Below, piece by piece: positions 2,543-48,418 of a stretch of 64,000 bases of DNA. The stretch spans positions 62,001 through 126,000 of the forward strand of contig SVOY01000004.1 of assembly GCA_015066105.1 (NCBI GenBank). Reading direction: 5' to 3'. Both the position numbers and the translations under genes were made by a program. How positions within the stretch are numbered: the first letter of the stretch is position 1; each line of letters opens with the position of its first letter. Source of the DNA: Oscillospiraceae bacterium (GTDB lineage: Bacteria; Bacillota; Clostridia; Oscillospirales; Acutalibacteraceae). Below the pieces are notes generated by a model, which worked only from the letters and a program-made list of their open reading frames with translations, did no database searches and was not told the DNA's origin.

Positions 2543-2566
2543 TCTTTCACCTCCATAAACAAGCGG

Positions 2567-4045: not shown

Positions 4046-4063
4046 TATCTCACCTCCCGTTTA

Positions 4064-6289: not shown

Positions 6290-6335
6290 AATTCTCTCCA
6301 TTCTTTCAAATAAACTGATAAAAATTTCTTTTTTT

Positions 6336-6364
6336 ATTATATCACCACAAAAATCATTAGTCAA
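6336..6364 (-). promoter_or_regulatory. Sigma-A type promoter of the glycosyltransferase operon
   Basis: Read on the minus strand, TTGACT (6364-6359), a 17-nt spacer and TATAAT (6341-6336) form a near-consensus vegetative promoter. A TG one base before the -10 gives an extended -10. Transcription would start near 6329, giving a leader of about 40 nt to the ATG at 6289. It lies between the terminator of the giant gene and the first glycosyltransferase gene, so this operon is independently transcribed. Confidence 0.85.
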
Positions 6365-6399
6365 GCAAAGAAGGAAATAAGCAAGCATTTGCCTTTGCA

Positions 6400-6439
6400 C
6401 AGATACAAAAAACTCCTCACCTCTTGCGAGGTGAGGAGT
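6400..6439 (-). terminator. Rho-independent terminator of the giant gene
   Basis: A perfect 12-bp stem (6428-6439 with 6412-6423) encloses the 4-nt loop 6424-6427. On the minus strand it is followed by a run of six T. It lies 38 nt beyond the stop codon of the 10378-residue gene and just upstream of the glycosyltransferase operon promoter. Confidence 0.92.
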
Positions 6440-6476: not shown

Positions 6477-9400
6477 TTATTTGAAGATGCTGAAAATCTT
6501 TGCGAAGAAGTCCTTAATCTTCTTGATAAGTCTCTGGAACCAGTTGAGTGATTCTTCTGCGTCTTCAACTGCATCCTGGTGGTCTTCGTCTGAACCGATT
6601 GTGTCGTCCCAGACACCTGTGAGATCCTGCATTACCTTAGCGATGCTTGCGTATGCGCATCCGCCGCTGCCTGCTGCACCGAAGAGCTCCTTGAAGATGT
6701 TAACAACTTCTGTGATGTTGCCGTTAAGACCTTCGTTGAATACAACTGCTACACCGAGGGCAGCGAAGAGACCGCCTACGATAATGTCGGGAGCGTTGTA
6801 AATCTGAGCCTTAAGGAAGAGCTGGTTGATTGCATATCTTACAGTTTCCTTAGCACCGGACTGAAGGTTAAGAGTTTCTGCAAGCCAATCTACAAGAGCG
6901 TTCTGGTTGTCTGAATCCTCAAAGAGCTCGAAGAGCCATGTGAATACGAGAGTGAGAACGTCGCCCTTATCTGCTACGATGAAGGTCTGTGATGTCTTGT
7001 TTGCTCTGCCTTCGTAACCAACGGGATAGTTAGCAACGTAGTTGTCAACATCCTTCTGGTTCTTGAGTCTCTTTTCGTTTACAAAGGAGTTAGCAGCCTG
7101 TGAACGTGAGGTTGCAACCTCTACGATTTCAGATGCGCCTTCCTCTGCAAGCTTCATCCAATCAATGTCGGGAAGGTGGAGACCAAGCTTTGCACCAAGG
7201 AGATCGAGAGGAATCTCGATACCGCCGAGAAGAGTATTGAGGTTAAGCATTTCCATAAGGTCAAGGCCGAGAACGCCGAGGATTGAGTAAACAGGTGCAA
7301 TAAGATTTCTTACTACAAGACCTACGCCTTCGTTTGCAATGAAGTATGCAAGGTTGGGAAGGATTGTAAGAAGTCCGTCAACAGGCTTGTTGAGAAGGTT
7401 GTCTGCGAAGTAGCCGACTCTCTCAAGGATGTAGCCCATGAGCTGTGACTTATTGCTGTTGTAAAGGTTTCTGTACTCAGCAACCTTCTTAACTTCGGCT
7501 GCCTTGAGACCAAATGCTTCAAGGAGAGGAATGATTGCGTAATCGTAACCGTTACCGCCCTTGATATTTGCAACACATGAAGGCATTCCGTTGTCGCCCT
7601 TGACAATGTTGCCGTTTTCATCTCTTGAGGGAAGAACACCGAGGGTCTTGCCTTCGCCGATGAGAAGGAGTTCAAGAACACTGTTGAGAGGATTGAGGAT
7701 TGATGCGAATGCATTTGCAAAGCTTGTAACTGTGCCGTTTACGTTCCAGTTAATGCCTGTTGCATCAACATCTGCCCATGTTTCTGCGTTTGCAAGTCTC
7801 TTTGCGAACTCTGTATTCTTGTTCTGATACTTAGCGTATTCAGCTGCGTAGCCCTGAACTGAAAGGTCAAGGTTGAGAGGCTGAACGTTGCCTGCTGCAT
7901 CGTATACAACAAGGATTGCATTGTCGCCGGTTGTGAGACCTGAGATTGTGTTGAGGATACCTGCTACGCTGTCGCCGCCGAGGAGGCCTGTGATTGAGCC
8001 TACAAGGTTGGAGACGAGCTCGTTGTTGAGAAGTCCGCCTACAAGACCCTTGAGTGAACCGTACTCGGTCTGTGAAAGAATGTCATTGATGAGCTTATCA
8101 ATGTTAGCAGCAATGAGGTCTGCGTTGTATTCTGTCATGTACAGATAGGTGTTGTAGTTAACGTTCTTGTTTTCTACCTTTCTGTTCTGTACGGGGATGT
8201 AGGAAACTTCGCCGCCGCCAAGGAGCTGGCCGATGAGTCCGATGATTGAGGTCGGGTCTTCGATGATGCCGTCAACAATACCCTGGAAGTCGCCGAGGTT
8301 GATGTTGAGAGCCTCTGAAAGAGCCTTCCAATTTTCTTCTGTAAGAACAGTCTTGACAAGTGTGATGAATGTATCACCGCGGTCACCCTTAAGGTTCTTA
8401 TAAGCGTCGCCGTTGTAGATATCCCACTTGTCGCTCATTGCTGAGCCGTCGAAGTCTACCTTACCGTCGTTGTTTGTATCAGCACCGGCTGCCTTAGCAA
8501 GCTCAAGCCAGTTAAGGTCAACCTTGAGGTTGAGAGCAACGTCGTTGATTGCGATGCCTGCAAGAACATCCTCAAGAAGAGCTGAGATGTCGTTGCCGTC
8601 GAGCTTGAAGGTGATACCTGCATCGATACCGGGATGCTCCTTACCGAGATATGTGGTAAGAGGCTCGCCATTGATGAGTGCGCCTACGTCGATGGGGATT
8701 GCAATCGGGAAGATTTCGTCAACTGCCTTAGCAAGGTGGTTGATGGGAGCAATAAGGTTTTCAACGATTGTTGCAACGCTGCCGGTACCGAGTGCATAGC
8801 AGAGGTTTGCAAGCATATCGAGTACGTTTGCGATGGGAGCGTTAAGAATATCGTCTACTCTGTCGAAGAGTGCTGTCAGGATGGGTCTGAGAGTGCTGCC
8901 GTAGTTACCGTCAGCTGCAACTGCTGCGTCGTATTCTTCCTGAGTCATAGCGTCAACGCCAAGGAGCTCAAGGAGAGGAACGATTGCGTAGTTGTATCCG
9001 CTACCGCCGCTGATAGCAATATCATCGAATACTGAAAGGGTCTTGCCCTTGAAGCTGTTGTTGGGATCTGCTTCGTCAAAGTCTTCTTCAAGCATACCGC
9101 CCTGGAGAAGGAGACTGAGTACGCAGTCGAGAGGAGCAAGGAAGTCACAAAGGAGGTTAATGAAGTCATCTACGGTTTCAATACCCCACTTGTACTCTGT
9201 TGCAACTCTTTCGCCTGTTTCGGCGTCAACCTCACTGTGGTTGTTCCATACTTCTGCCCATGTCTTTGCATTGCCGATGTAGGCTGCAAGCTCTGAACCG
9301 AAGTTGCCTGCCTTGAAGGCTGTGGGTGCAATGCTGAATGCATCGTTACCTTCAGCATCTGTTGTGTTCTTGAGGCTTGAAAGGTCAGTTACAAGACCCT

Positions 9401-12400
9401 CAACCATGCTGATTGTATCAGCGGGAAGACCTGCAAGAAGCTTAGCAATAGCGCTTACAAGGAGATTTGCGATGTCGTCCTTAACGAACAGCGGGTAAAC
9501 GAGGTCTGCGAGGTTGCTTACGCCCTCCTGCTTAACAAGGAGATCGAAGATTACGGGAATGAGACCGTCAAGGTTGGAGATAACCTGGTTGAACTGCTGG
9601 TGAGCTGACTCGCCGCCGTTCTTATATTCGATGTCTGTCTTGTCAATTACAGGCTGGTTGTAGCCCTTGTACTCTACAAGGTATCTGTTGAGAAGCATAA
9701 GGATGAGGTCAACTACAGCGTCTGCAGAGCCGGCAAGTGAAGTAATGATATCGTATACCATATTTGCACTTTCTGTGCCGTCTTCATTCTTTGTAGTGGG
9801 CTCAAGATTAAGAGCTTCACAGAGGATTGTAAGGAAGTCTGTTGTAAGAACTGTTGAAAGAACATACATGATAGCGCTGCCGGTATCTGTTGTCCATTCA
9901 GCTACATCTTCGCCCTCGTCGAGGGTGATTTCCTTACCGTCCTTATCCTTAACTGATGCCTTGGCAAGGTCAAGGAAGAAGGTATCGGGAAGTGCGTTAA
10001 CAACGTGAAGAACATTGCCTTCATCATCCTTAATCTCGATGTTGGGAAGGAGACCGTTGATAAGGTCAACGAGGATTGCGCCGTTATCGCCTGCGATGTT
10101 GATAATGTTGGTAAGGTTGAGCTTCTTACCGTTGGGAAGTGTTACGTTGATAAGACCTTCGAGAAGTGCGTCAAGCTGGCTTCTTGAAATTACGCCGCCG
10201 AGAGCATCAACGATTGCAAGTACGGGAGCTGCAAGGTTCTGGATTACAACTGCAACGTCGTTGTTTGCAATGAAGTAGCCGAGGTTAGCAACAACTGTAA
10301 GGATTGTTGTAAGAGGAGCCTTTTCAAGTGATTCAACGAGGTCAACAAGGATGTAGTCGATAGTTGCTTCAAGAGCCTCACCTGCTGTGTTAGCGGGAGT
10401 TGCGTCAACAACTGCCTTGTTTGTTCCCTTTGCAAGCTCTTCAAGACCGAGACCCTGAAGAAGGAGAGGAACGATAGCTGTCTCGTAAGCGTTGCCGCCC
10501 TTAAGGGTTACGCTTGCGTCTTCAACTGTAATTGTAAGGTCTTCGCCCGTGAGAAGGAATGCAAGCACGCTTTCAAGAGGCTTGAGAAGGTCGAGAAGTG
10601 CACCGAGGAAGGCATCCTTGCCGTCTATGCCGCTGAATACTGCAGCGTATACGGTTTCTGTCTTGGGTGAACCGTCTTCGTTCTTAGCCTGAGTCTTGCC
10701 GTCTTCTTCGTATACGGGTACTTCAGATGCGTTTGCTGCTGCAACGTCTGCCCATGTTGTATCGGCTTCAACTGTTGCAAGAGCTGCTGTCTTCTGAGCT
10801 TCTGTGAGCTCAGTGTTCTCGTTAATCTTCTTGGTGAGAGCTGCAACACCCTTTGCAACATATGCCTGAAGCTGAGCATTACCTGTAGCTTCTGCAAATG
10901 CTACGGGAGCAAGGTCAACACCGAGGAGATCGCTGAGAGTCTTGGTAAGGTCTGCGCCGAGACCCTTAAGGAGACCGAGAAGTGCACCCGTGATGGTTGC
11001 CATCATATCATCTGTGAAGAGGAGGTCACCGAGGAGATAATCAACGATGTTTTCAAGGCTTGCGCCGCCTTCCATTGCCTTTGTTGCTTCATACATCTTG
11101 GCAATGAAGTCCTTTTCAGGATCCTTGCCGTCAGCAAGAAGACCGATGATTACGGGAACTGCCTTTACAAGAACTCTGTCAAGGCTTTCAACAGCTGTTG
11201 CTGCCTTACCGGCCTTTTCAAAGTCGAGTGTACCGAGGAACTTGAATACATATTCAAGTGTTGATACGTCATATGCACCTGTGAGGATAAGTACAAGTGC
11301 GGATACTACGCCCTTAATGGAGTCGTCGCTACTGAGGATGTCAAGGATGAGTTCCTTGATTGTTGCATCGAAGTCAGCGGGAAGGAGACCGTTAACAAGG
11401 CTGTAGATGCTCTTGCAGTTTTCTTCTGAAAGAACTGTGTCAAGGAGCGTTACGATGGTGTTAGCTGCATCGCCTGTGATGTTTACAAGGTTGGGAGTTT
11501 CGGGATTCTCAACAGTGCCGATATTGTATACCTGCTTTGTACCTGTTGTGAGAATCTTGCCGTCTTCATCCTTCTTAGCCATCTTAGCTGCAAGTGCGGT
11601 CCAGTCAAGGTCAAGGCTGAGCTTGATCTTTGTGCCGTTGATATCAAGGACACCGATAAGGTCATTGATAAGCTTAGCAAGGTCGTCGCCTGCAACGTTT
11701 ACAGTGATACCTGCGTCAACGCCGTCATGTTCCTTACCGAGGTAGAGGCCGATAATCTCGTCTGCTGCAACGTCAATTCTGATTGCAAGCGGGAAGAGGT
11801 CATCAACTTCATCGATAAGGGTATTCAGAGGAGCGAGGAGGTTATCAGCAATAGCGTTGATACCGTCGCTGCCGATGAAGTAGAAGAGATTTGCGAGCCT
11901 TGAAAGGAGCTCATTAAGAGGTGTTGCGAGAATTTCGTTAACCTCACCGATGAGTGCTTCAAGGATGTACTTGAGAGCCGACTTGTCATCTTCAACACGT
12001 TCTACATACTCTTCATGAGTAAGGAGACCTGTTGCGCCGAAGGCCTCAAGGAGAGGAACGATAGCGTAGTTGTAGCCGTAGCCGCCCATGATTCTGATGT
12101 CTGCGCGCTCACCGTTCGGATCTTCAAGAGCGATGATGGGCTCGCCGATAAGGAGAATCTGGAATACGATATCGAGAGGCTGGAGAACATCACATACGAA
12201 GTTGATGAGTGAAGCATCAAGGCCTGTGATCTTCCAGTCGAACTGGCTGTGCATACCGAAGGAGTGAACCTTTTCGCCGGTTGCATTGCCGTTTTCATCC
12301 TTCACGTCAACCATTACCTTGCGTACTGCAACATCTGCAGTTTCTGCGTTATCATCAACGTCAGCCTTTTCAAGGTCAGCGCTCTTTGAGTAGTAGGTTG

Positions 12401-30400: not shown

Positions 30401-33400
30401 ATGTAAGCTCTACCTCGTCATTTTTGTTAATCTGACCGTCGCCGTTAACGTCATCCTTCTGACCGTCGTGGTCAGCATCAAGATAATACATATCTATCTT
30501 GCCGGAGTCGCTGACGAGCTTGCCGTTTTCCTTATAGAAGCCGTAGGTAAAGTATTCGTAAAGAGCTGTGGGATTGTCCTTATCGGGAGTCTTGCCGTCA
30601 GCTTTCTTATAATACATGAATGCATCAAAGGTCATATCAAAGCCTGCAGCCTTAAGAGCCTGCTGAATTGTCTTTGATGTGCTTGTGCTGCCGCCCTCAC
30701 CGAAGAGACCGATTATAGCGTTTGCAAGCCATGTGAGTGAGTCATCCTTGAATGCGAAGTCAACTGCAAGACCCTTAACAAGGCCCCAGAGACCGTCGTC
30801 ACCTGCAAGTGATTCGATAACGCCGCCTTCAAGAACGCCGTTTTCCATAAGGGTTGAAAGAATTTCGGGAACAGCCTCACGTACAACATAGTCAAGGTTT
30901 TCGATTGTTTCGTTAACCTTTGCTTCTGTGAAGAGAAGCTTACCGTTTTCATCCTTAGGCTCATTTGCCCAGTCATAGCCGTTATGCTTGATGCCGTATT
31001 TATCGTCGGACATAGCAGCAATCTGGTCTTCGAGCTCTATAAGCTCTTCATCAACACGGTTGATGATTTCGTAGAAGTAGAATTCACCGTCATCAGCCAC
31101 ATAGTCTGTGAAGATATCGATGATAATGCTTGTAAGAGCGTCAACATACATACCGCCCTCAAGCTTACCTTCTGTATCAGGCTTGCAGAGGTTGGTCTTA
31201 ACCATATTGATGATATCTTTTACGCGCTGGTCAGCTTCAAGCTCTTCCTCAGTCTTGCCTTCTGTACCCTCGCTGTTGAAGATGCCTTCAACAAGGCCGC
31301 CGATTGCACCGACGATATCCTCTGTAAGGAGAGTTCTGATAAGGGTAATAAAGAGCTTACCGGGTGAACCTACGAAGCGAGTGTAGGTTGCCATACCATG
31401 ACGGTATGTAGTAGCGTTGCGGTTAACTGTTGAGGAGTCGGCGGCAAGCTTACCGAAGTCGAAGATTGCCATACTTGAGCCTGTACCTGTGTCAACACCA
31501 GCAAGGCCGTTGATAAGGTCATTAAGAAGTGCTTCAATATCAAGGAATGAGTCAAGAAGCTCATTGATATCAAGGGTTAAAATTCTTGAAAGAACGGGGT
31601 CAACGATGTCAAGAATCTTAGTTACGGGAGCAATAAGGTTCTTAACTGCGATTGAGAAGTTACATGTATTTCTGCCGTCCTCGCCCTTGAAGAGGAAGAG
31701 GTTATAAGCAATGTTGGGAAGACGTGTGAAGAGAACAGTAAGAGGTGCGTCAAGAAGACCTGCAGTTTTGCCGTCCTCACTGCCTACAAGAAGCATCTTG
31801 ATAGCCTGAAGAAGAGGCATAAGAGGTGAGTTTTTTGTAACAGCGAATCTCTTTGTGATTGTCTCGCCGTCCTTGTTGATGGTACCTGTTGAAAGGTTAT
31901 CAACATTTACGTCATTTTCATTCTTATATCCAACGGGGTTCTGTCCTACTGCTGCAGTATAAACATAGTTGTCGAAGCTGTTCTGGCTCATGCAGGCTTC
32001 ATCAAGCATAAGAGCCTCAAGAATAGCTACAACACCCTTTGAATAACCGTTTTCACCCTGAAGCTCAAGCTCGTCAAAGAGAACGATATCCTGACCTGAA
32101 AGAAGGAAGGAAAGAACAGGGTTAAGGGGATAAAGAACGTCTGTTACGATTTCAAAGAGCTTATCAAGCTTCTGATGTGCAGTGGCATCAGCAGCAAGGT
32201 TGAGCCATGTTGTACCCTTAGGTGCACGGATGTCGCCCCAGGTCATATTCTTAAGCTCATCACGTACCTTAGCTGTCGTGTTGAGAGTCTTACCTGAGAA
32301 GCGTTCTGCCTGACTCTTGAGCCAAGCTGCAAGCTCAGCGTTTGTACCTGCAGTTGTTGTGCTTGTAAATGAATCGTAGAAGCCAACGGGTGTTACATCA
32401 AGGTTGAATTCGCCGAGAGCGTCAAGAACCTTGTTGAGAATGCTTTCGGGGTCGCCGAAGAGGCCGCCGAGAAGACCCTCGTTTACAACAAAGGGATCGT
32501 CCTGATCGATTTCTTCGGTTGCTTCGCCGGTAGTCTCATCAATGACATAGTTAACCTGGCGTACGATTTCAACGTCACCGTTTGCATCGTAAGCAAGAGG
32601 AGCAGTTTCACTACCTGCACTGGTATAGAAGGTAAGGGTCTCAGTTGTACCGTTACCGTAGGTGTATGTGATTGTCTCTGTTTCACCGTCAGTGTGAGCC
32701 TGGATTTCGTTGCCTGCGGCATCCTTAGCCTTTGTGGGAAGGCCGTTACCGAAGACAAGGTTCATAAGCATATCCATGAGGTTATCTGTAACAACCGTGT
32801 CAGCAACAACTGTTTCGAGTGTTACACTGCTGAGGTTGTCGGCGGCAATAGCCGCCTTGGCCTTTGTTATTGCATCGCCAAAGCCGAGGTCACGGAGTGC
32901 ATCAACACCCATAAGGGTATCTTCAAGAGCAACAAGAAGAGTGGGAACGAGCTTTGCAATTGTTATATCAGCGTTTGTAACGGCAAGGTCAGCCTTTGCG
33001 ATAAGCTCAGCATCGGTGTAGTTGCCGGCAGCAAGCTCAGCTTCTGTTATGTTAACATTGCCCTCTGAAAGATACTCTTTAAGGATTGTACCTACCTTGA
33101 ACTGTGAGTTACCGTTATTATCAAGATAGGGTACACCATCAGATGACCAGATTTTTTCACTGTCATTTGCGGGGTCATAGAAGCTTTCAAAATCAATTAC
33201 ATAGTCATTGAGAAGCACAATAATGATAGCCACAAGGGTATCAGCCTGACCTTCAACGAGAGGAATAATTGTATCAAGAATACTTGTTCCGTCTTCACCG
33301 GGCGCAATAAGGCCGTTAAGAAGAGGCATCAGGAAATCAAGTGTGCCGTCATCAAGAAGCCAACGAAGCAACGTAAGAACTGCTGCACCGGGCTGTGCAT

Positions 33401-36400
33401 CGATATGGTAGTTACTGATGGAAGCTGAATAAGCACCTGCGGAAGTCTTGACAACAACATCACCTGTTGACATGAAGCGGTTAACAGGAATTGTGAGCGG
33501 TACCTGCATAGTGTCGCCGCCCTTCATGAACATCCATTCAAGGAAAGCGTTGTCAAGACTTTCATTTTCAGGCGTTGACGGATCGTCTGCCTTCATCAAG
33601 GCACCGTAAAGTGCAGAGGTCAGAAGACCCGGACTCTGTATGTAGTAGGTCTTGCCGTCAACCACCCAGGTTGCCTTATCAGTTTCGCTTGTTACTGTTT
33701 CTGTGTATTCAAGACCTGTTTCGGGGTCAATTTTTGTTTCCTTTGTAACCTTCATCAGGTATGTATAATCTACCGTTGAGGTTGAACCGTCAGAATTGGT
33801 GACAGTATAGGATTTAACCGGATTGGTCACCCGTTTACCGCCAAGAAGTGCGGAAAGAAGACCAGTAATACCGCCTGACATAGCCTGCTGATTGATGCCA
33901 AGACCCTCAAGAAGAGGAAGAACGATATCTGTAAGTGAAAGGGTTGTAACGTCACCTTTAATAAAGTCTGCAATATCAATTGAATAACCGATGTAAAGAG
34001 CAATATTTGAAAGCTTGGGAAGAATCTGGTCATACTCAAGCATTGCAAAAAGGTTGGGAAGAAGTTCTGCAATGGTTCTTACGGGATGGAGGAAAAGATC
34101 CTGCTGGAGCCATGTAACGATGGGCTCAAGAACGTAAGTCCAGAGGTCAATACCCGAGTTATAAACTGAAGAAACATTAACACCCATGTTGTTTTCTTGT
34201 GCATATGTACCTGCAACTGACTTGATCTGTTCACCGGTATAGAAATTGTCGATACCTAAAAGTCTGTAAAGAGGGATAAAGAGACGGTCATAGAGGGAGT
34301 CACCTGTATCCTTAACAATAACTGATGCATTGATATCAGCAATGTCAGCCTCAGCAAAGAGGTTGGTGGCTGCGCCCTGATCAGACTTCTTTGTAAGAAG
34401 CTCAGCAAGAGGAACATGAAGACCGCAGGTTGCAACGGCAAAGGTACGGTAAAAGTCTGACCAGTCATTGATGTGCCATGCCTTCTTGTTGCTGAAATAG
34501 TGATCGGGATTTGTACAGTTCGGATCGCTACATGCATAGGGGGTCTGGTTGGGATCTCCGTCCTTCCAAAGGTTAGCGTCAAGAGCCTGACTTGCGGAAA
34601 TTACCGAACCGTCATCATAGGGAAGTGTACGGCTGTAGAAACCAAGAAGAGCTGTATCCTTTGTAGCAATAAGGTTCTTACTACGGTCAGCTGAACCGTA
34701 GGTGAAAGGAGCCCAGTAGGAACGAAGCTCTGTACCGCCCTTCGTTGCGTTACTCTGGTTCTGAACAGTCTTATCTATGGGAGCCTTCTGAAGCACCTTA
34801 AGAATAGTTGTATAGTCTGCTTCACTGTTGCCGCCCATACCAAAAGCTTCACCGGTAAAATACTTGTACCATTCATGGTTCTCACCGTCAACCTGGTCAA
34901 TCTGGTTTACAAGATAGTCCTCATAATAAAGGTGAGGCATGGTGGGAAGTGCTCGCTGCGTAATTTCTGGAAGCCACTGCCAAAGTGACTTAGAAGCTGA
35001 AACAAGTGAAAGAGGTTCACCGTTGGTATCTGCAATATTATAAACAGCAGGACCAACAGCACCGTTGAGTGCTGTGAAAAGCGTTGTCTGAAGTGAACCT
35101 GTCCAAAGAAGGTCAACGACAAGGTTGATAAGGAATTCACGGATGTTCTTACATTCTGCACCGGCCTTAAAGGTTTCAACCGCATGGTAAACGCCGTCTG
35201 AATCTGTGAATGCAGGAATTGTATAGTCATATGCCCAAGTGCCGAGGAAGCCCTCTACCTTGCCTGTTTCAGCATTATATGTACCTGTAAGGTCATTAAG
35301 GAGGGTACCGAGGTCGTTGGAAACGAGAATGCGGTCAAGGTCATAAACAGCCTCATTCATAAGCTCCTTAATAGCTGAAGGCTGAAGAGATGAACCCTGC
35401 TTAAGCTCAATTTCGTTTACATAGCTCTGAATTTTTGTAACATCAAGACCTACAATGCATTTTTCCCAGGCATAGCCCGAGCCTTTTTCATTACCGATGA
35501 TATAAGCAAGAATCTTTTTATCAGAGGAAAGAGCATCTGAATCGTTATAAGCCTGATTTCTGAGGGCATTAAGACCTGCCTGGAAATCAAGGGCCTTCTG
35601 ATACATGCCGCCGTTTGTTGATTCGCTTGTGCCGTAAACCTTTACGCCAAGGTTAAAGATATCAGTTGAGCTGATTTCGTTATTAGCCTTGTCGGCAATA
35701 TATACAGGGTCATTGTCAAGGAATTCGCAAACCGTAGTATAGAAGCCTGCGGAGGCTCTTGTTGCTTCTGCCTTGGCAATGATTGACTCAAAGTTGAAGT
35801 AAGCAACCTTACCGGCCTCTGAGAAGTACTTATCAATAACTGAAAGAGCCTCATAATAGCCGAGAGCTGCCTGAGCCTTGAGTGTGTGGATATAATCTGT
35901 GTATGTATCTAAGCCGTCAGGATAGATTTCTGCATAGATATCTGCAAGGTTTGTATCCTTTGAAAGAGCAAGAGCCTTGTTGTAGTAGCCGTAATACTCA
36001 GAGTAAATCTCGTATACAGTTGCAAAGTTACGGCCTGCAAGGATAGTCTTTTCGATGATTGTATCCATAGCGGCCTTATCTTCAAGATAAGATTTACCGT
36101 AAACATCACGAGAAACCAAAGCAACTGTTGAATCAACCTTGTTATAGATTTCCTCTGTGATGGAGTTTCCGCCGGGATTTGTAACAAGGTCAGCAAGGTC
36201 AGCAAAGGTAGTATAATCAAGCACGTATGCATTGAAAAGACGCACTACCTCTGTTGCTTCAGTAAGCCAAGCCTTAGCTGCTGCGTATTCAGCTGTATCT
36301 TCCCACACAAAGTCCTTAAGCTCTTCTTCAGTCATATCCTTTGTAAGGTCTGCAGAAAGCTTAATTGAATCAGCTCTTTCGGCAAGGTCATTAAGAGCAT

Positions 36401-37613
36401 CAATAACGTTGAAGTTACTGCTAAGATCGTAGATTGATGCATTAAAATAAAGCAGAGCATAGCCCTTACCGATTTCAACGCCGAGAGCTACAAGGTATTT
36501 TTCTACCTTTGAGGTTTCCTTACCGATAAAGTCCTCATCTTCGTTGATGATTTCGAGAACGAGAGCACTTTCAGCGTTGAGGGCATTGATCTTTGCTTCG
36601 ATTGCATCTCTGTGAGCAATAAGAGCATATACGTCCTTACCGGTAAGATCGGTAGCCATAAGTGCATTCAACTCAGCCTTATACTGTGCTGCCTTGGGTG
36701 CGGCTTCTGCACGTGCACCTGAGTTTTCAACCCATACCTCTGTCTGAGCATACTTCTTACCTGTTTCAGACGCAACAAAGTGATCCCAAACCTCAGCTTC
36801 TGTGTAGCCGAGACCTGCGAGTGCAATTGTTGTATTGAAAAGAGCCCAAACATTTGACATTTCGTTAAGCTCATCTGGAGTCAGGGTATCCTTTGTGAAC
36901 CAGCTTCTGAATGCATCTGCATCAATACACTGTTCAAGCACACCCTTGATAGCAGCAAGCTCCATACCTGCTTCAACAAAGCCCTCTTCTGTAAAGGTGA
37001 TATCGTCAGCAGTTGAAAGGGTATAACCCGTAGTAAGGTCACCCTTGGGAGCAAACTTCAACACTGCTGTTGAATATGTCTTATCCTCAATTGATGCAAC
37101 ATCCTTGAAGGCAAGCAAATCAAAACCGGTACCAATGTTGAGGATAACGGTTTCCTGTGTTGAAAAGGTGCCTGTTGCCTGTGAGCCAAACTTGAAGTAA
37201 TCAAGAATAGCATTGTAATTGGCAACGGTATGTCCGTTTGCAGTTGCATAGCCCTGAGCATCGGTCTCGATGTCATTAATAAGATCTACATAGGTCTTAT
37301 TAGTGGCAACAGTGCTTTTCGCATAATAAGCAATAGCTCTTGCGAGTGCAAGCCAACCTCCGTTCAAGGTGTCACGCTTGACCTCCCATTCGGAGCCGTT
37401 CTTGACCGGTACGCCGGATGTATCCCTTTTGGTTTCATCCGTCACTGTAGCCTTGTCAATGGCATCCATAAGGCTGTCGTAGTGCATTACGATTGCATCG
37501 TAAATGTCATCAGTGTCACTTGTTGCAGCAAAAACGCTGAAAGACACTGAGACGCTGGACATGATCATAATCACGGCCAGAAGCAAACTTAACGCTTTTT
37601 TACCAACTTTCAT
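6477..37613 (-). CDS. Giant secreted tandem-repeat protein, 10378 residues, function unknown
   Basis: A single uninterrupted frame of 31137 bp. It begins with a signal peptide (MKVGKKALSLLLAVIMIMSS, cleavage likely near SVFAA at residue 30), so the product is exported by Sec. Residues about 30-1050 are mostly helical and Ala/Leu/Glu rich. From about 1100 to 10050 there are some 15 tandem units. Each holds: a TWADV/TWAEV motif; an optional Tyr/Asp-rich beta-like insert; W-[NG]-[IV]; a hydrophobic PL-x-x-VL-x-FLL-x-G block; GG-x-GY-x-x-AIVPLLEALG; NL-x-YFI-x-x-x-G; and NLLAPV, then further Leu-rich segments. Calcium-loop-like sequences occur in some inserts. The C terminus is an aromatic/basic amphipathic tail (WFQRLIKKIKDFF...). 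No LPXTG, SLH, cohesin, peptidase, PKS or NRPS motif was seen. AAGGAGG lies 8 nt before the ATG, and promoter and terminator are recognisable. I do not recognise the family. An extended helical surface fibre or matrix protein is an inference. Confidence 0.95.
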   Translation of the reverse strand: MKVGKKALSLLLAVIMIMSSVSVSFSVFAATSDTDDIYDAIVMHYDSLMDAIDKATVTDETKRDTSGVPVKNGSEWEVKRDTLNGGWLALARAIAYYAKSTVATNKTYVDLINDIETDAQGYATANGHTVANYNAILDYFKFGSQATGTFSTQETVILNIGTGFDLLAFKDVASIEDKTYSTAVLKFAPKGDLTTGYTLSTADDITFTEEGFVEAGMELAAIKGVLEQCIDADAFRSWFTKDTLTPDELNEMSNVWALFNTTIALAGLGYTEAEVWDHFVASETGKKYAQTEVWVENSGARAEAAPKAAQYKAELNALMATDLTGKDVYALIAHRDAIEAKINALNAESALVLEIINEDEDFIGKETSKVEKYLVALGVEIGKGYALLYFNASIYDLSSNFNVIDALNDLAERADSIKLSADLTKDMTEEELKDFVWEDTAEYAAAKAWLTEATEVVRLFNAYVLDYTTFADLADLVTNPGGNSITEEIYNKVDSTVALVSRDVYGKSYLEDKAAMDTIIEKTILAGRNFATVYEIYSEYYGYYNKALALSKDTNLADIYAEIYPDGLDTYTDYIHTLKAQAALGYYEALSVIDKYFSEAGKVAYFNFESIIAKAEATRASAGFYTTVCEFLDNDPVYIADKANNEISSTDIFNLGVKVYGTSESTNGGMYQKALDFQAGLNALRNQAYNDSDALSSDKKILAYIIGNEKGSGYAWEKCIVGLDVTKIQSYVNEIELKQGSSLQPSAIKELMNEAVYDLDRILVSNDLGTLLNDLTGTYNAETGKVEGFLGTWAYDYTIPAFTDSDGVYHAVETFKAGAECKNIREFLINLVVDLLWTGSLQTTLFTALNGAVGPAVYNIADTNGEPLSLVSASKSLWQWLPEITQRALPTMPHLYYEDYLVNQIDQVDGENHEWYKYFTGEAFGMGGNSEADYTTILKVLQKAPIDKTVQNQSNATKGGTELRSYWAPFTYGSADRSKNLIATKDTALLGFYSRTLPYDDGSVISASQALDANLWKDGDPNQTPYACSDPNCTNPDHYFSNKKAWHINDWSDFYRTFAVATCGLHVPLAELLTKKSDQGAATNLFAEADIADINASVIVKDTGDSLYDRLFIPLYRLLGIDNFYTGEQIKSVAGTYAQENNMGVNVSSVYNSGIDLWTYVLEPIVTWLQQDLFLHPVRTIAELLPNLFAMLEYDQILPKLSNIALYIGYSIDIADFIKGDVTTLSLTDIVLPLLEGLGINQQAMSGGITGLLSALLGGKRVTNPVKSYTVTNSDGSTSTVDYTYLMKVTKETKIDPETGLEYTETVTSETDKATWVVDGKTYYIQSPGLLTSALYGALMKADDPSTPENESLDNAFLEWMFMKGGDTMQVPLTIPVNRFMSTGDVVVKTSAGAYSASISNYHIDAQPGAAVLTLLRWLLDDGTLDFLMPLLNGLIAPGEDGTSILDTIIPLVEGQADTLVAIIIVLLNDYVIDFESFYDPANDSEKIWSSDGVPYLDNNGNSQFKVGTILKEYLSEGNVNITEAELAAGNYTDAELIAKADLAVTNADITIAKLVPTLLVALEDTLMGVDALRDLGFGDAITKAKAAIAADNLSSVTLETVVADTVVTDNLMDMLMNLVFGNGLPTKAKDAAGNEIQAHTDGETETITYTYGNGTTETLTFYTSAGSETAPLAYDANGDVEIVRQVNYVIDETTGEATEEIDQDDPFVVNEGLLGGLFGDPESILNKVLDALGEFNLDVTPVGFYDSFTSTTTAGTNAELAAWLKSQAERFSGKTLNTTAKVRDELKNMTWGDIRAPKGTTWLNLAADATAHQKLDKLFEIVTDVLYPLNPVLSFLLSGQDIVLFDELELQGENGYSKGVVAILEALMLDEACMSQNSFDNYVYTAAVGQNPVGYKNENDVNVDNLSTGTINKDGETITKRFAVTKNSPLMPLLQAIKMLLVGSEDGKTAGLLDAPLTVLFTRLPNIAYNLFLFKGEDGRNTCNFSIAVKNLIAPVTKILDIVDPVLSRILTLDINELLDSFLDIEALLNDLINGLAGVDTGTGSSMAIFDFGKLAADSSTVNRNATTYRHGMATYTRFVGSPGKLFITLIRTLLTEDIVGAIGGLVEGIFNSEGTEGKTEEELEADQRVKDIINMVKTNLCKPDTEGKLEGGMYVDALTSIIIDIFTDYVADDGEFYFYEIINRVDEELIELEDQIAAMSDDKYGIKHNGYDWANEPKDENGKLLFTEAKVNETIENLDYVVREAVPEILSTLMENGVLEGGVIESLAGDDGLWGLVKGLAVDFAFKDDSLTWLANAIIGLFGEGGSTSTSKTIQQALKAAGFDMTFDAFMYYKKADGKTPDKDNPTALYEYFTYGFYKENGKLVSDSGKIDMYYLDADHDGQKDDVNGDGQINKNDEVELTFVQIYNNHSYTVYETDKDGNLVLENGQPKLKAKQVQITRDDVKADENGDKITEYKYFVLDEDGEATDEAVWLTESGKTEVVEGEVTKKLVAATKDQKVLDENGNETAETVYEKAIRTTAYQQLQKAEGKFAYTYTDADGVEQTYYGFEQETVYNSGETDDEGKAIYYTLSPVYSETRDWNFGIDTITEDESEARDVFTLRKVKFINVLWDVLQPFANVFSALFAGDALRLFDTLNIEGGFGYDDYLLPLMRAFGLDSIIAQLGTEKLDDLQTKDVNGNKITHLMTRDEYMQMVYVDGDVSKGINPEGVGTSVKTVVNYIIYFVEILCKYPVETLANALPTLAYFLYSDGLTSILNGVLIPVTTLTNRLKEIIDLDINALGAGLIDMLATGSWENFQVALEGFMYIDEDTGELVTNVDKNLNLTYSILSLIANLEFDLSSIVGEDDPYGGMYGIVLFLNKENEHMAKELMAQADELEKNGGATAAEIKEMRQQAKDCRAGTLKQFLKAIAALGDPVSEHSSEAHEYIRNNYADYVFVSSTGTVYVSKAEVLMFLLDFIFENNTLKEVIGSLLGYDITDENTTDAELLDEIITNVFNNPNELIALIVALFTDYDVKNIVAVELKEITAENHFEFYEDAGYDTHEEVLAHNNNLAEGEEKVTEISRVKTSATIDNLDALVGKILNLSLIKDPLTEEGKGAFNTLFGLTNDDTITLQALVDAVFETYLYDDKGLNSIMDMLIGLLGGESSAQIVNIVLDILAGSGYDLTPQNFKTNVPELADTIGDAETWAEVVKANSKYQYVVKNDKGEVTATYYADEKSLTKLDHDGDATTEEIDVIADMVQTQTYEEKTEQDENGKDVKVKLYNYIYSVKNEAGELVDEPLQLKEAGKTEWIETPDDPETEENEEVKHIIEAVMEDTDKQKTAVKISATWGLQTRDDFVDMLWNCIKPLAPIFAALFCEGELTIFDKISIKGAAGYEGFVLPLIKALGIPALRANKDADGNWTDDLTTANDNEGNYYLGGGATSATLVDYATYKATVYGADGKLGTDDDNGKIMLTTITDALFALIDSLCARPVNTILTIIPYLAHFVESDGVDAILNNLLVPVTTITDMLKKIYKIDLLAMVKDLLRGLIKDMNDEAGEPSDSTAPEDQATTGGAAAAYLLEVVEEADGSGQSAAAAAIAELTEPSPALDLSGGDSANYTFKNILVDLLNGVSINGTALNTILDPEFIFLDLASIAWLPGVKAEDDTWSRYPSNKITVTINADRRGGSYSPSEATVYTVDRESVLIKVLNDIVFTDGIRDLIGDLLKYDFSKDAMTTLKEDDSNYLLTVLLYGVFEDPEALERLLVDLLSWYSVEYQDARVSNADDAFNEIQSSNALVYGENGNGLDKAQMEKLPEDFDSLIGAIVPAVLGMLPEDALGDIKLQGANLEEMVHNLLADLMMDKEVTNDDGTKEMKYGFATQLVELLVGALGGNATVSMIVGLLPTIIEGVDVELKDFKAVNDAFDAYFVTADGEELDTWAEAYEYFKTIKKYVEPEEKGEDYVAPAMDADKQLYATDENGKPVPEYALDEDGAKIPVYANGTSVTDDWGNVWYTDGGTAADGEEAKADTYVVKTVDGKIVYTYQYELKLTNTDSFGVHSYADVLELVSQILAPFAPVLRFLLTEADLVALDGVHITGGDGYDRFIIPLFEVLGVDEYIGADKFLDKDEFAALDNTAFTAKVVEYIDGLISMVVNTPIQTIVDLVPELVFFIYSDGLAQAVEQLVAPLLTLVDMVNDITAKEVVIEGRDEPMVALDIVALITDLINDNLMTPNGLEEVDGFYGDNGLITRLLTANGLETLLQGLLDNANAWIYAYEYTIPKEMVEGATEDELVTVYFNKADLDGATHIPTNGNGKDKTFTLKAVPEKNKTPINLGLDKDNNGVADEQPIVGIFKWILEKTCKIEKVATIRVFGAENGKVWGVKANRADTLVQIISETLLGGDMLTSLLTSFGVEIVEGDILDTILKALTGENKYQLFVVLLTYFNEYDVEAMVMDYLSFEKIDYAYSTYIEGTNLTQRKLRRAIKKLDGSILTVIPELLEMLEDVDFIKMLLDKIGNKTVQSLKDFVEELLVAYAFNDQTMNELMGLLIGLLGGEDLAGTLSTVLPLVNQIVGIDLTPYGFMEATTSDAITAYLEPAINAAAAEYVVDKNGDVVLDDDGLEVQVGVDGVTWQDIAEYYTVYVYSYNNVTTTTKYVYTYEVKGETKEYLVEEKISAAEDLILKDGDNEYQLEPKMDGEEIETRDFYSYETNYMYSKDADLHDTAVEGQEGKTWFGYEQATDADGNALWADEANGVPEIKTVEKIVNVVDEDGKNVLNDDGTIKTEKKTEKVRATRVNALSGDAAFNWGIDEKTSYEDKADKFVDILAGIVVPLEGVLNFLLRGDSLYILPDEDTANSGVLEFYGNNGYANVIMPLFQALAVDQVGGTIVSAEAYENGRGTALTLTAITDGIFAIVDALCEGPLEYIFTLLPSLSYFISCNGPEVVLNNLLSPVFALLNLADPIVGDLLDDLIGAAISDIFADYMPANVDYTVKTNYKAPIYLTETQTVDGVETKVKVQATDKGETIEFRDETYYISAGDGTPIEGKYVVTTETVDGEIVPDFEEYNAYALTDLLKICGEYGENLVKIINDLVGPLLLGEDATEEEIAAFKLLDDTFFADYAAHSITINKQTANADFYYFYTDDEGNWYKIKDDLYNSETMGEIVEIHYVVDWFKVDIADSAVFLLDNVLTEDILTAIADLANIDLSKEDDILAGILNNLVEGKFNGLVIADIITALFENYTITYNELYGEYIVPDHSHLDVLESDEDKEKAEKVPGQLDTIIEEALPALAPILSDLLAPKEGAEPTILNDIFDNYATITPDEDVADLYEVVEYLLNDLVFSDELVNTLAALIINLIGTTDIVGTIIEYFGLTGIKLDPQSYLATVEKAYGSNAELAAAVEAFEGIIGTATTWADVVKNDTTPLYAYEYETGEIKDGKPVKATVYLADADAKTYELTKTEGEGEDATEVKVTVNLTKLDAVKAEYNKVVNGESVADVIWGVNDAADKKDAFVKALAVIVEPLFPVLQLVFQGKTLTLIGHDKAAYEPVNMTEYYDDGTHQLITDDSRDGKEIGNGYVELMGVNGYEELLVPVLDALGGLEAFGAYSADNTDGIMTVAEFNSINTAYDMLSYIVNVVFGFVNNLVDSPVTYLAKYLPSLLYFLGSDGVYYAVHSVLQLVNGLIAVAEPLIGANGIKLSDTIGLPLDLKLLKLDDTVEPGKVQKQNDEGKYAYIVKGDESKTEIYLDKAGLTKNGEDEIEAVMVDGMVTIKGLCSIINDAIKMPGLINKEIILKLAGYLGDYKVIDTVRTTASSVLYDTELDAYVNAKGEIVAKKEGDIWVDDLGMPTTKPVAESKITTIVGDTKYTLTGLLQFALADGLVGNLVDTSSMEGILETIINNVMGPDATKNVTEILIKLLNKYVITYQAIEEPDEALVPAATDYAKYGVEKAEVQLALDNLQKLLPEVLDLLGVGSLDKLVADNLYTDKVVNGLIAMLVGLLGGLDDKTWGTITDILGYVKDIVGLNIDITPAAYAAEGNALAGFINAVDVKREVKDEDGNVTGEERIPVADLTWADVAKFYTKYEYRYMVEEAKAAEGVEGDDDYVAAVDAKYVTVWFADANLDGADHTPTSGDYAGKTFKLEKVETPYYGYEYTIPAVGEEGTDDYVAAKTEVYKSTDDKLKEVKVGEVTYKIEDGSLKAKGEVDRVHNTKVESDFVWGLADETTLNAKADKLVAVVTDLLKPLDGVLSLLLAGGVQNFNGTVYGDSLGAFKEINIMGGSGYNYAIIPLLETLNVPADKILSQTDYEATIETKGALGYILETVLHTVNDNLDRPLDFVLGLFANLAYTVSKDGVTTFVSNLIAPLSEVVEAIEGVLPVAIKVDLMALVDGGSVAEVLLGEDVALKGAEVGLTLDLDCDTLEELLAKVLAKYVAGFDITIDFSDIAAKSAKLDEMGDIEYTNSKVDPTWDICLGTPGKNIQGDTAATIITLLSMLITSENIDALLQMLKVDLDTMDKAIADLLNKVIDSPDVVIGAVIKLLANNYDVAGMIEAMVFYFLGEAEYDYSNIKGGLLNGGQSAVNSAIGKFDKMVNNLIPKLLKLLGNDLEKPVEFIADLYAGLGDKAADADIQAVVDYLLNDLVFNDKMMNYLLAAIVGLLGGIDAKTFETVVDIVKEVLGIDLSPAGVAAISDENGGAIADFIEAHVAEGKTLADLTWAEIAAAESWYEYRYCVAEAKEAVGEEGDDDYEPAVEAKYVTTHFADADLDGEEHTPTTGDYAGKTFTLEAVKKDDKHVTKVILEETWNIADKDDFLGILYEITAVVEPLLAFLFKGENINILIDTFGLKGSNGFETALVPLAKALNIELESEDADDYEDANEMLKAVVDGIFGLVEDIEKAPISTILEVLGSASYFIANDGVALVINNLIAPVTGLLSIFEKKTQNADGTTTSEGITMDDINKLLKSLIDMDLNDITGIAGADGSKLVSMINGLLPKVELVGEDGAITIAEPIPAKFFEIMSTYAINYDSMTSAQKKDDANIRTLAVTEWSVDKADVLMYLLSTVCSDDFLAFLGSVAKAEEGTVLGDLIYGLSGDEDLVINIISMLLNEYTLVYNKYAQKDITKENVDPKAPLTDTNLAQAIQAIDGLVPALIGLFVKDADSLAGLLENLVADADLGNLLMNLLVPLLADLDIDEILGYVKEFSNLDVKLDPSAWTGTIIADFINQATDLDEDGKISWAEVEAHYTQYEYSYTADGATSATTEYRPEADKDNYTVEIGEGTAKKTYTLAPVYEYKYTYEVTVDGEKEEKTIILDKNDYNEYDVDGDKTTADVAVTLVGPVQKSKMVSEYNWNIKEFDDLKDFAVDLLKPLDVVFKLLLAGADIIVAPDTKEDVEPYPAQITVRGGDGYNFAIIPLLEAIGATGLKTQAEYEAQAEADGSHLKYVLDVLFAEVEEILATPVSQLMSRLANLFYFIGNNSANDLVDNLLAPVNTLIAEVDPIFPLAINIDVSKVGSDEEIIGLYLGKAHDGVDAGIHVNVEATALATLLNDLLAGIEINGTKLGLSLDLNWLEIAAKMAKTEDATKQSVTGAKIATTVSAMDYDAYENVEGTTEYADGKYRNIEGDVVDTFVTLLQVILTQDNTEAVRNLVLGLLEEGELKDILDDILSDPDAIEKAIGVVVLLLTGEGAMTGYPLDFVYKFLGELNFGYKNAEIKDAISKFDKMIAREAVGVLEMFGTPAADKDPADYNFLEKMVTGVADKENATLADVVAWLLGEFAFTAENFDTVMGLLNNVLADVITADLAGIIATILPIQLMPYEFAAATGNAQLIAYVGKAVDAVVDKLADDAKAEDIEAAKKAVTWADVREANATKNGDEWKYTTSWNVEGKDAFVSTLLALISPLNPILDFLFAGKKLSFTINGVELWGADGYANAIVPLLNALGAKQLGVNLPATAADTSTALGYIVDALLGSDTTLDDGTVVHTKGVVDVICEAPLTSILTIVGNLSYFLANGNLDELIQNLVAPVMGILELAESLVSREQLDGIIEGLANITLPGGKALNITNIINIAGAEGEGLVALINELIGGIRAYHKVMVEVDGEMVSVIQQYTPEQVEEDPDGNYWLSDEDLLDADGNVVYATDEDGNVITDADGNKVAVKAYWKVLQMINLLPDDFFKQFSQYVVEDSTYENTEVTTIGADVDNWTINTGDALMYILSTVLDYDFFETILKKVGLDVSQGIGETVLSMADKENELIDVLVMLLTDYKVVHSKIEQDEIPADTATPYASFGQNATTGEDLLNNENTSAAIAALDPIINTVIAMVADDKTLGGLVNGLIADADLANLIMNALVPVLAGLEDNKDLDLDAILGYVKELTNIQLETLAPTLWADADFGSELHNFLDGATTWTEVEEKYSFYVYEYDVVNDKGEKTGTATYYSKSADLEKADVDDNAETADVAVRKVMVDVKDENGNATGEKVHSFGMHSQFDWKITGLDASLINFVCDVLQPLDIVFQILLIGEPIIALEDPNGERADIRIMGGYGYNYAIVPLLEAFGATGLLTHEEYVERVEDDKSALKYILEALIGEVNEILATPLNELLSRLANLFYFIGSDGINAIADNLLAPLNTLIDEVDDLFPLAIRIDVAADEIIGLYLGKEHDGVDAGITVNVAGDDLAKLINDLIGVLDINGTKIKLSLDLDWTALAAKMAKKDEDGKILTTGTKQVYNIGTVENPETPNLVNITGDAANTIVTLLDTVLSEENCKSIYSLVNGLLPADFDATIKELILDILSSDDSIKGVVSALVLILTGAYDVSTLEYVFKFLGTLDFEKAGKAATAVESLDRVLVKAVPVIIGLLADGKDPEKDFIAKMYEATKAMEGGASLENIVDYLLGDLLFTDDMMATITGALLGLLKGLGADLTKTLSDLLGVDLAPVAFAEATGNAQLQAYVAKGVAALTKKINENTELTEAQKTAALATVEADTTWADVAAANASEVPVYEEDGKTQAKNEDGSPKTETVYAAVFSGIDGKDAFLGALLDLLKPLESVLAFLLTGEDLTITVEDASVTLKGGNAYETAIVPLLLQGLGLEELAKGTNKAVVDATPANTAGEALEATIDYILVDLVESLEKAPLTTILTVVANLGYFIANNDVAVVIQNLAAPVLAIVDALGGVISRSQLDALLEGLINVTLPNGKKLNLTNIINIAGDNGAILVDLINGLLPNIEIKDDEGNVLHVVNALPDTFFLDLAKASVKDKDGKEITLDEGEDVAEWTTDTGSAIMYVLSTVLTTDFLTILCEALNLEPTTKNEDGTESANMVYDIITSLAGSADAVVDLILMLLNRYLVEYKGYNQPVIDKTDIEYKNGGESAHQQFNQVISNLDGLIPVIFDLLVKQEGVSNLADLVYPLFVKDDIANLLVSAIAKLLAGLPADTISMVEGLVTDLSSLKNTTDAEGNDAFSIAPTAFKAGNFGSELAAYIGNAKTWAEVWNNHSEVDAETGERVATEYKWGIETVDDFINLLCDFLAPLDCVLSLLLQGGMLEEDFDEADPNNSFKGKTLSVFDDIAISGGSGYNYAIVPLLELLGVDAMTQEEYDAAVAADGNYGSTLRPILTALFDRVDDILNAPIANVLDMLANLCYALGTGSVATIVENLIAPINHLAKAVDEIFPIAIPIDVGALINGEPLTTYLGKEHPGIDAGITFKLDGNDISALLEDVLAGIAINDVALNLKVDLNWLELAKAAGADTNNDGKVDFDGSAMSDKWDIYNGDAYKNLKGDRGDTFITLVKTVLTEENWKALSEALNINLGDFQGIVDGIIEDPTSIIGLIGQLLGGGEVSYIPVQNRKVENKNVNYNTYLYMTEYNADLIAANIDKLINDILSQTEYGSLKGLVGGLLNNELVSNLVGSITGLLGGDSVAGILNTISGLTTGDNAILVVYDAAGNVQPLNLDLSVQGYAAEYAKYQNKNTEFAKRLANAETWADVDATGINWNVNGTVTSFANAFASILNPLNSVLELLLIGEGKTLGVLPSRDENGNIVKGDNGMPSCVANIKGGNGYDYAIIPLLEAFGLKAAEVKKVAEYRNLYNSNKSQLMGYILERVGYFADNLLNKPVDGLLTILPNLAYFIANEGVGLVVRNLIAPVYSILGVLGLDLMEMLNLNTLLGGIEIPLDLLGAKLGLHLPDIDWMKLAEEGASEIVEVATSRSQAANSFVNEKRLKNQKDVDNYVANYPVGYEGRANKTSQTFIVADKGDVLTLVFTWLFELFEDSDNQNALVDWLAETLNLQSGAKETVRYAINQLFLKAQIYNAPDIIVGGLFAALGVAVVFNEGLNGNITEVVNIFKELFGAAGSGGCAYASIAKVMQDLTGVWDDTIGSDEDHQDAVEDAEESLNWFQRLIKKIKDFFAKIFSIFK
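15966..16001 (-). other. Canonical EF-hand-like calcium loop in the giant protein
   Basis: Residues 7205-7216 of the giant protein read DLDEDGKISWAE. This has Asp at loop positions 1, 3 and 5, Gly at 6, Ile at 8 and Glu at 12, exactly the EF-hand calcium-loop pattern. It overlaps the TWAEV motif that opens the core of most units; other units keep the W-A-[ED] part but not the acidic ligands. Calcium binding is inferred from the pattern. Confidence 0.6.
17317..17402 (-). repeat. Insert module copy 1 (ADLDG-HTPT-GKTF)
   Basis: Encodes a 28-residue module with FADADLDG, HTPT, GDYAGKTF and LEAV. Near-copies occur at about 19244-19329 and, more diverged, at about 24692-24779. In this copy and the 19.3-kb copy it lies after the TWAEI/TWADV motif, in the Tyr-rich insert region. 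Confidence 0.8.
19244..19329 (-). repeat. Insert module copy 2
   Basis: Encodes FADANLDG, HTPT, GDYAGKTF and LEKV, nearly the same as the copy at about 17.36 kb, including the preceding acidic EGDDDYVAA-type stretch and KYVT. Occupies the same position in the neighbouring repeat unit. Confidence 0.8.
24692..24779 (-). repeat. Insert module copy 3, different position in the unit
   Basis: Encodes FNKADLDG, HIPT, KDKTF and LKAV, preceded by YAYEYTIPKE. Unlike the other two copies it does not follow a TWADV motif; it lies in the later, post-NLLAPV part of its unit. The module therefore seems to have moved as a cassette. Confidence 0.7.
30411..30486 (-). other. Dockerin-like calcium-loop segment in the giant protein
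   Basis: Residues about 2377-2401 contain two overlapping acidic loops, DADHDGQKDD and DVNGDGQINKND. The second matches the calcium-binding half of a type I dockerin repeat. Only one such half is present, without the paired second repeat of a true dockerin, so it is more likely an isolated calcium-stabilised loop in the insert region. Confidence 0.55.
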
Positions 37614-37746
37614 AAAATTTTCCTCCTTAAATGAAAGAATGTATATTGCAATAATAGGATTCCCTATACTAATACCTAACGCATTTTAACGAATTTTACC
37701 CAAAAAAGGGTGCAATTCGCCCATAGAGACACCTATAACTATCGTA

Positions 37747-37775
37747 AGTATATCATTTAAAGTCAAGTTTTTCAA
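37747..37775 (-). promoter_or_regulatory. Promoter of the giant gene
   Basis: On the minus strand, TTGAAA (37775-37770), a 17-nt spacer and TATACT (37752-37747), with an extended -10 (TGATATACT). The same ATGATATACT string and a downstream GTG-[TA]-CTCTAT element at identical spacing occur at the promoter of the 2394-residue gene. Confidence 0.75.
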
Positions 37776-48403: not shown

Positions 48404-48418
48404 GTGAATCTCACCGCC

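Follow-up and report, generated by a model that had tools for sequence, protein, structure and literature searches.

A single gene on the reverse strand of the window, by which we mean the whole 64,000-nucleotide stretch of DNA analyzed here, encodes a predicted secreted protein of 10,378 residues (hereafter the giant) that carries 15 tandem alpha/beta units. The units constitute a domain family that is new to the libraries tested, without a counterpart in Pfam, NCBIfam, or PHROGs, or in the PDB at the level of either sequence or fold. In its mode of action the giant probably resembles a fibrillar surface protein of very large size, and where its features could be compared with those of named families, it falls into none of them. 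The reading that we favor, at a probability of roughly 55%, is that it is a Sec-secreted cell-surface fiber of 1.1 MDa, composed of a head, an acidic stalk, and a retaining tail. Under this proposal, the acidic units would form a stalk that holds a fast-changing head away from the cell, the C-terminal tail would keep the chain on the membrane or the wall, and the head and/or the stalk, perhaps together with the product of a neighboring gene, might, by analogy with giant surface proteins of other bacteria, bind substrate, host, or neighboring cells. A block of two units that was duplicated over and over may have given rise to the giants, possibly starting from an ancestor resembling the transporter-linked two-unit protein described below.

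The gene occupies positions 6477 to 37613 of the window on the reverse strand, where all features of the giant given below are also located. As the earlier note had claimed, it is one uninterrupted frame, with 10,378 codons from the ATG to the stop and no internal stop codon, and the mature chain has a computed mass of ~1.12 MDa and a pI of 4.15. The first 30 residues (37524 to 37613) form a signal-peptide-like start with many positions that are invariant among seven aligned giants; judged from its sequence, the giant is a secreted protein with a Sec-type signal. A ribosome-binding site, AAGGAGG, can be read directly 8 nt before the ATG (37622 to 37628), and a hairpin search placed an intrinsic-terminator-like hairpin with a T-run after the stop codon (6439 to 6412), one of 3 such sites found, two of them on the strand of the giant, against 0.1 expected. 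The signal peptide, ribosome site, and terminator described in the earlier note were therefore all recovered, but its promoter is less secure. A promoter-like TTGAAA-17-TATACT site does lie upstream (37747 to 37775), yet with 4 sites of this type in the region, where 1.8 would be expected, the call is weak and only slightly above chance. The protein had been described as rich in Leu and Pro, which holds for Leu (11.6%) but not for Pro (only 2.7%).

The 15 units, delimited with a core HMM, a unit alignment, and an AlphaFold2 model of unit 13 plus the core of unit 14, lie between 6687 and 34529 and extend from unit 1 (~aa 1029-1799, with a weakly supported start placed by eye) to unit 15 (aa 9944-10309). 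The core HMM, trained on 10 copies, detected 15 copies in the giant at E < 1e-8, five of which fall outside the training set (cores starting at aa 1099, 2605, 3330, 6779, and 8459); 11 further matches with E values of 0.004-1 were left out of this count. As cut, the units are 366-790 aa long with a mutual identity of 17-45%, in agreement with the approximately 15 divergent tandem units reported from first inspection. They share a G-x-GY...PLL...LG stretch, a Pro ~50 residues further on, and a Leu/Tyr-rich helix pair, and each of them is net negative, with charges from -17 to -93. In a tree of 73 cores, in which firm support is missing for some of the forks concerned, units 3 to 9, 14, and 15 pair with the same-position unit of a distant giant, and the late units alternate between two clades, one containing units 8, 10, 12, and 14 and the other units 6, 9, 11, and 13. 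Because of this alternation, the C-terminal part of the giant appears to have grown through duplication of a two-unit block.

Searches with the whole giant chain returned nothing above the cut-off in NCBIfam or in Pfam, where the best match, DotY (E 0.003), scored 17.8 bits and the cut-off is 27. PHROGs, queried with aa 8981-9700, the head, and one two-unit homologue, yielded only a stray match at E 0.023 and none above the cut-off, while PDB sequence profiles gave nothing below E 0.5 (best E 0.58, noise). A tblastn search with one unit (aa 7311-7845) found no match at E ≤ 0.001 in phage or plasmid collections, and no description of the giant or its unit was found in the literature of open-access PMC. 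Scans of the giant with Pfam and NCBIfam detected no known adhesive domain or known surface anchor, and no enzyme, toxin, protease, or immunity-like match above the cut-off. LPxTG is absent from the entire chain, neither SLH nor CWB2 nor any further S-layer domain appeared in the Pfam scans, and cohesin and dockerin were likewise absent from the Pfam results, in which EF-hand traces remained sub-threshold (E 0.016). We rejected a cellulosomal scaffoldin or dockerin protein on the lack of a cohesin or dockerin match in Pfam, and an S-layer protein on the lack of an SLH or equivalent wall-binding match in the Pfam scans.

The stretch chosen for structure prediction, aa 8981-9700 (8514 to 10673), was modeled by AlphaFold2 from a 76-row alignment with a pLDDT of 84.2 and a pTM of 0.71, and consists of long helices plus short beta hairpins. 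When this model was compared by Foldseek, none of its 93 PDB matches and none of its 103 matches in a viral set had E ≤ 0.001. The modeled unit is likely a new fold, as far as the PDB and the viral set covered by the comparison can tell. The profile search and structure prediction of one unit proposed in the earlier note thus produced no PDB relative by sequence or by fold, and its view that no named domain accounts for the unit was borne out by sequence families, PDB profiles, and a confident model alike. A match to a characterized domain, which would have spoken against that view, was not found above the cut-off, nor was any enzyme, sortase, SLH, or dockerin signature. Two facts from the model weigh against a fiber: the unit mixes helices and strands, and the units are placed relative to each other with only moderate confidence (pTM 0.71). 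The missing match to a known adhesive domain or anchor also counts against the fiber reading, as do a head with no detectable homologue of known function and a tail that marks only a few proteins and is of only average conservation relative to G007.

The unit occurs in three architectures within the lineage, namely giants, medium proteins, and two-unit proteins. The medium proteins are secreted, roughly 2,500-4,300 aa long, and contain 2-9 detected cores; the source genome itself also encodes one of 2,917 aa. In two medium proteins (L098 and L102), the last core groups with core 2 of the two-unit proteins and the inner cores group with core 1, as though core 1 had been copied repeatedly. The two-unit proteins comprise a signal peptide and two units in ~850-1,050 aa, and they are homologous to the units of the giant (hhalign probability 99.9%, E 4e-35). 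Near the end of their alignment there is a hydrophobic segment with basic residues behind it, and hydropathy near the C-terminus reached at least 1.9 in 20 of 22 two-unit ORFs, a test that is unspecific because most giant ends also score 1.6-2.4.

At 20 of the 21 loci with room for it, a Walker A motif is encoded just 3' of the two-unit gene, within ~170 bases of its stop codon. Pfam analysis of this neighbor, carried out for the copy in the source genome only, identified ABC_tran and FtsX, and its best NCBIfam match was MacB, below the cut-off of that family. These two-unit/ABC pairs are found at L018:6781-12281 and at L096, L097, L099-L101, L103, L107, L109, L112, L114, L116, L118, L120-L124, L127, L129, and L130. 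The pairing of the two-unit form with an ABC gene suggests that the domain earlier served in an extracytoplasmic complex for transport or mechanotransmission. A more far-reaching scenario, which is possible but tentative, is that a novel domain fold arose in one Clostridia family, where it partnered a MacB-type transporter outside the cell, and that two-unit duplication then turned it into megadalton surface fibers. These would be anchored by a cationic amphipathic C-terminal helix that is common to unrelated secreted proteins and takes the place of sortase or SLH anchoring.

The ABC pairing also bears on the alternative that survives best, although we regard it as unlikely, in which the giant is a secreted binder or buffer in the envelope for cations, peptides, lipids, or antimicrobial peptides. 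It would then act as a sponge or decoy instead of an adhesive stalk, and its units would be a multiplied form of a binding domain first used by the transporter-linked two-unit receptor. Consistent with this, two-unit homologues lie directly before ABC genes at 20 of 21 loci, MarR- or TetR-like genes as well as additional ABC exporters were noted by eye near several of these loci, the chain is very acidic and contains many hydrophobic helices, and passages of one article describe Gram-positive MacB-type pumps with adaptors that protect against peptides (PMC5985334). However, the giant is not itself beside a MacB-like transporter, an ABC-2 type exporter pair being found 5' of its partner gene instead, and the single head and conserved unit order suggest a positional architecture that goes beyond copy number.

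The partner gene (38032 to 45213, reverse strand) encodes a secreted protein that is 2,394 aa long. Pfam assigns Flg_new (Listeria-Bacteroides) repeats to it (PF09479, E 1.6e-6, 28.5 bits against a cut-off of 27), and its C-terminus is Cys-rich and aromatic. Of 11 genomes, counting the source genome, 9 have a relative of 2,151-2,467 aa located 5' of the giant, with one gene separating the two in G009. G026 has merely a local partner match, within a 3,406-aa protein, and in G033 no partner relative was found upstream of the giant. The end of the partner (38032 to 38160) reads C-x-C-x-C-H...W...FRFF-K-IIK...CC, a motif also present in orthologues, and a similar Cys-containing, aromatic end was seen on another ORF in L126 (80-1390). 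Upstream of the partner, a domain search identified an ABC-2 type export pair (47660-49264) of the teichoic-acid or polysaccharide exporter type, and serS was recognized by reading in the same upstream region; similar genes occur in several relatives. On the 3' side of the giant lie three GT2 glycosyltransferase genes with coiled-coil-like C-termini (1226-6400), in place of which G002 and G031 have a GH3-like gene, as judged by eye.

The conservation of this two-gene locus, along with the acidic composition, would fit a structural coat, S-layer-like or sheath-like, formed by the giant and its partner. We consider such a coat improbable, given that SLH, CWB2, and other S-layer matches are absent, that the length of the giant varies from 8,291 to 11,580 aa across species among the matches listed, and that two different giants occur in G003.

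At the N-terminus, the signal peptide is followed by a giant-specific head (~aa 31-1028, 34530 to 37523, with the end drawn by eye). An HMM of the head, run on the ORFs at the scanned loci, recovered five further giant N-termini with E values below 1e-80; its remaining matches below E 0.001 covered the signal-peptide end only, and weaker ones were partial. By this profile, the ~1,000-aa head was found only in giants among the ORFs scanned. The head had no match to a known family and no detectable homologue of known function, and its alignment with the two-unit profile covered no more than the beginning of unit 1 (probability 6.5%). Relative to G002 and G007, aa 250-1030 form the most diverged section of the giant, silent sites included, with dS values of 1.40 and 1.57 compared to 0.72 and 1.07 overall, and dS is also raised in aa 1030-1800. 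Expressed in window coordinates, silent-site divergence over 34524-36863 (aa 251-1030) is ~1.5-2 times that of the whole gene. Because silent-site divergence is raised there, an exchange of N-terminal segments among lineages is suggested, with dS near saturation.

At the opposite end, the last 24 residues (6480 to 6551) form a cationic amphipathic tail with a pI of 10.6, delimited by sequence and a tail profile. Searched in 8 genomes, the profile matched other proteins too, in contrast with searches by regular expression or hydrophobic moment, which were over-stringent. We fetched 20 matches, hand-picked among the better-scoring rows with giants and some short or broken frames left out: the match lay within 6 aa of the stop codon in 16 and within 16 aa in 19, a signal-like start was present on 19, and the repeat unit was absent from 14. 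These C-termini (L173-L192) show the tail as a short, cationic, aromatic, and amphipathic segment on unrelated secreted proteins. In a 373-kb sample of the source genome, consisting of the first 20 kb of 20 contigs and excluding C8, C17, and C25, the tail profile scored below 5 bits on all 289 ORFs, 48 of which have signal-like starts, and the top two scores both belonged to ORFs with signal-like starts. The tail is thus restricted to few secreted proteins per genome, and it may be an undescribed surface-retention signal. Its conservation is very high relative to G002 and merely average relative to G007, with a dN at the giant C-terminus of 0.065 and 0.214, respectively.

The two ends taken together also speak to the idea that the giant is a contact-dependent effector, or a giant protease or hydrolase for delivery to other cells. 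Polymorphic toxins have variable C-termini. A fast-evolving first 1,000 aa without a family match might be expected of such a protein, but the C-terminus of the giant is conserved, unlike those of polymorphic toxins, and no enzymatic, toxin, protease, or immunity-like match rose above the cut-off, making this idea very unlikely.

The unit is present in all 34 same-genus genomes (own included), and an open frame of 8,291-11,580 aa occurs in at least 16 of the 34 among the matches listed, many of the remaining genomes being fragmented drafts. One genome, G003, harbors two different full-length giants of 10,186 and 10,010 aa on separate contigs (L054-L057; C21 and C108). Tiles of the giant are collinear along all of its counterparts in G002 and G007, and along that of G031 from aa 251 onward, where this comparison began. 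In G009, G016, and the two G003 giants, tile order is kept apart from occasional jumps from one similar unit to another, and in G026 and G033 it is kept only in approximately the first half. Whole-gene dN/dS, calculated by the Nei-Gojobori method, was 0.23 relative to G002 and 0.21 relative to G007, and it was below 0.3 in each section of the giant in both comparisons, indicating purifying selection over the whole length. An assembly chimera with frame breaks had been named in the earlier note as a possible refutation, and the source genome is indeed a 27-contig draft that is 85% complete, but a chimera or non-coding artifact can be considered ruled out by the comparable open frames in at least 16 of the 34 same-genus genomes among the matches listed, the relatedness along the full length, and the purifying selection.

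Beyond the genus, 1 of 2 genomes representing other genera in the family carried the unit and none of 23 from the remaining families of the order did, for a total of 35 positive genomes out of 59, and a search across the family detected it in 16 of 100 genomes, corresponding to 15 of 99 genera. With these numbers, the search for homologues of the unit suggested at the outset placed it throughout the genus and in part of the family. A class-wide search of 391 genomes with a narrow 12-row core model returned the source genome only, for which 8 candidates were scored. An order-wide search of 394 genomes with a two-unit model, scoring at most 2 candidates per genome, matched 5: the source genome, three genomes of one genus in the family, and one outside the family. 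This order search missed family members, as seen from its 5 of 394 compared to 16 of 100 in the family search. The match outside the family (G574, E 3e-14) comes from a genome that is 75% complete with 5% contamination, and may reflect either contamination or a genuinely wider spread. Because few candidates were scored per genome and the class model was narrow, absence of the unit outside the family is only indicated. In a scan of public sequences, the best 80 of 117 confirmed stretches represent 60 loci, all with titles indicating a MAG or uncultured source; 52 of the titles name Clostridia, Oscillospiraceae, or Ruminococcaceae, a ruminant sample is named in 28, and one is labeled Bacteroides.

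The giant gene accounts for ~1.3% of the genome, and given this share and the relatives in all 34 same-genus genomes, the giant should matter to the lifestyle of the bacterium. Moreover, since the unit exists at three scales in one lineage, as two units, as 2-9 detected units, and as the 15 of this giant, the stepwise growth of a giant protein becomes traceable. Should the tail prove to act in retention, it would go some way toward explaining how surface proteins of Gram-positive bacteria stay on the cell when they lack any known anchor.

Among known systems, the MacA/YknX adaptors, as passages of PMC5985334 present them, resemble the two-unit protein in being encoded immediately 5' of a MacB-like ABC-FtsX gene. 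They differ in that the two-unit protein has no adaptor family match or fold match, and in that its putative membrane helix is C-terminal once the signal peptide is removed. Pfam gave nothing above the cut-off for two of the two-unit proteins, and a full model of one (pLDDT 75.5, pTM 0.63) had 0 of 73 Foldseek matches to the PDB at E ≤ 0.001, on which grounds we rejected an HlyD or biotinyl-lipoyl adaptor of the MacA/YknX kind.

With the fibrillar adhesins, as outlined in portions of PMC8286594, the giant shares a signal peptide, an N-terminal candidate head, a tandem stalk, and a C-terminal candidate retention element. In contrast to them, its 15 units lie outside the known stalk families and it has no known adhesive domain, nor does it have LPxTG, SLH, or a like anchor. 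The same portions state that nearly half of fibrillar-adhesin-like proteins are without a known anchor and that novel anchors are possible (PMC8286594).

The nearest precedent, by analogy and as far as sections of PMC12863079 describe it, is the set of Giant proteins of Apilactobacillus kunkeei. According to these sections, Giant1-5 are 3,000-8,000 aa long with a signal peptide, Giant1-4 have a special N-terminal domain with a solenoid related to binding domains, long imperfect repeats follow that are helical in Giant1-3, the positively charged C-terminus is proposed to attach to the wall, and the proteins are lineage-restricted, with giant genes neighboring each other (PMC12863079). A signal peptide, a special N-terminus, long repeats, a positive C-terminus, restriction to a lineage, and neighboring giant genes are thus common to both. 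The C-terminal 3,479 aa of the giant described here, however, have no DUF5776 or SH3-type (SH3b-like) Pfam match, its units are larger, alpha/beta, and without a sequence match, and its tail is a short, amphipathic, helix-like segment. Giant surface proteins are accordingly a known kind, and what is new here is the domain family and the candidate retention tail.
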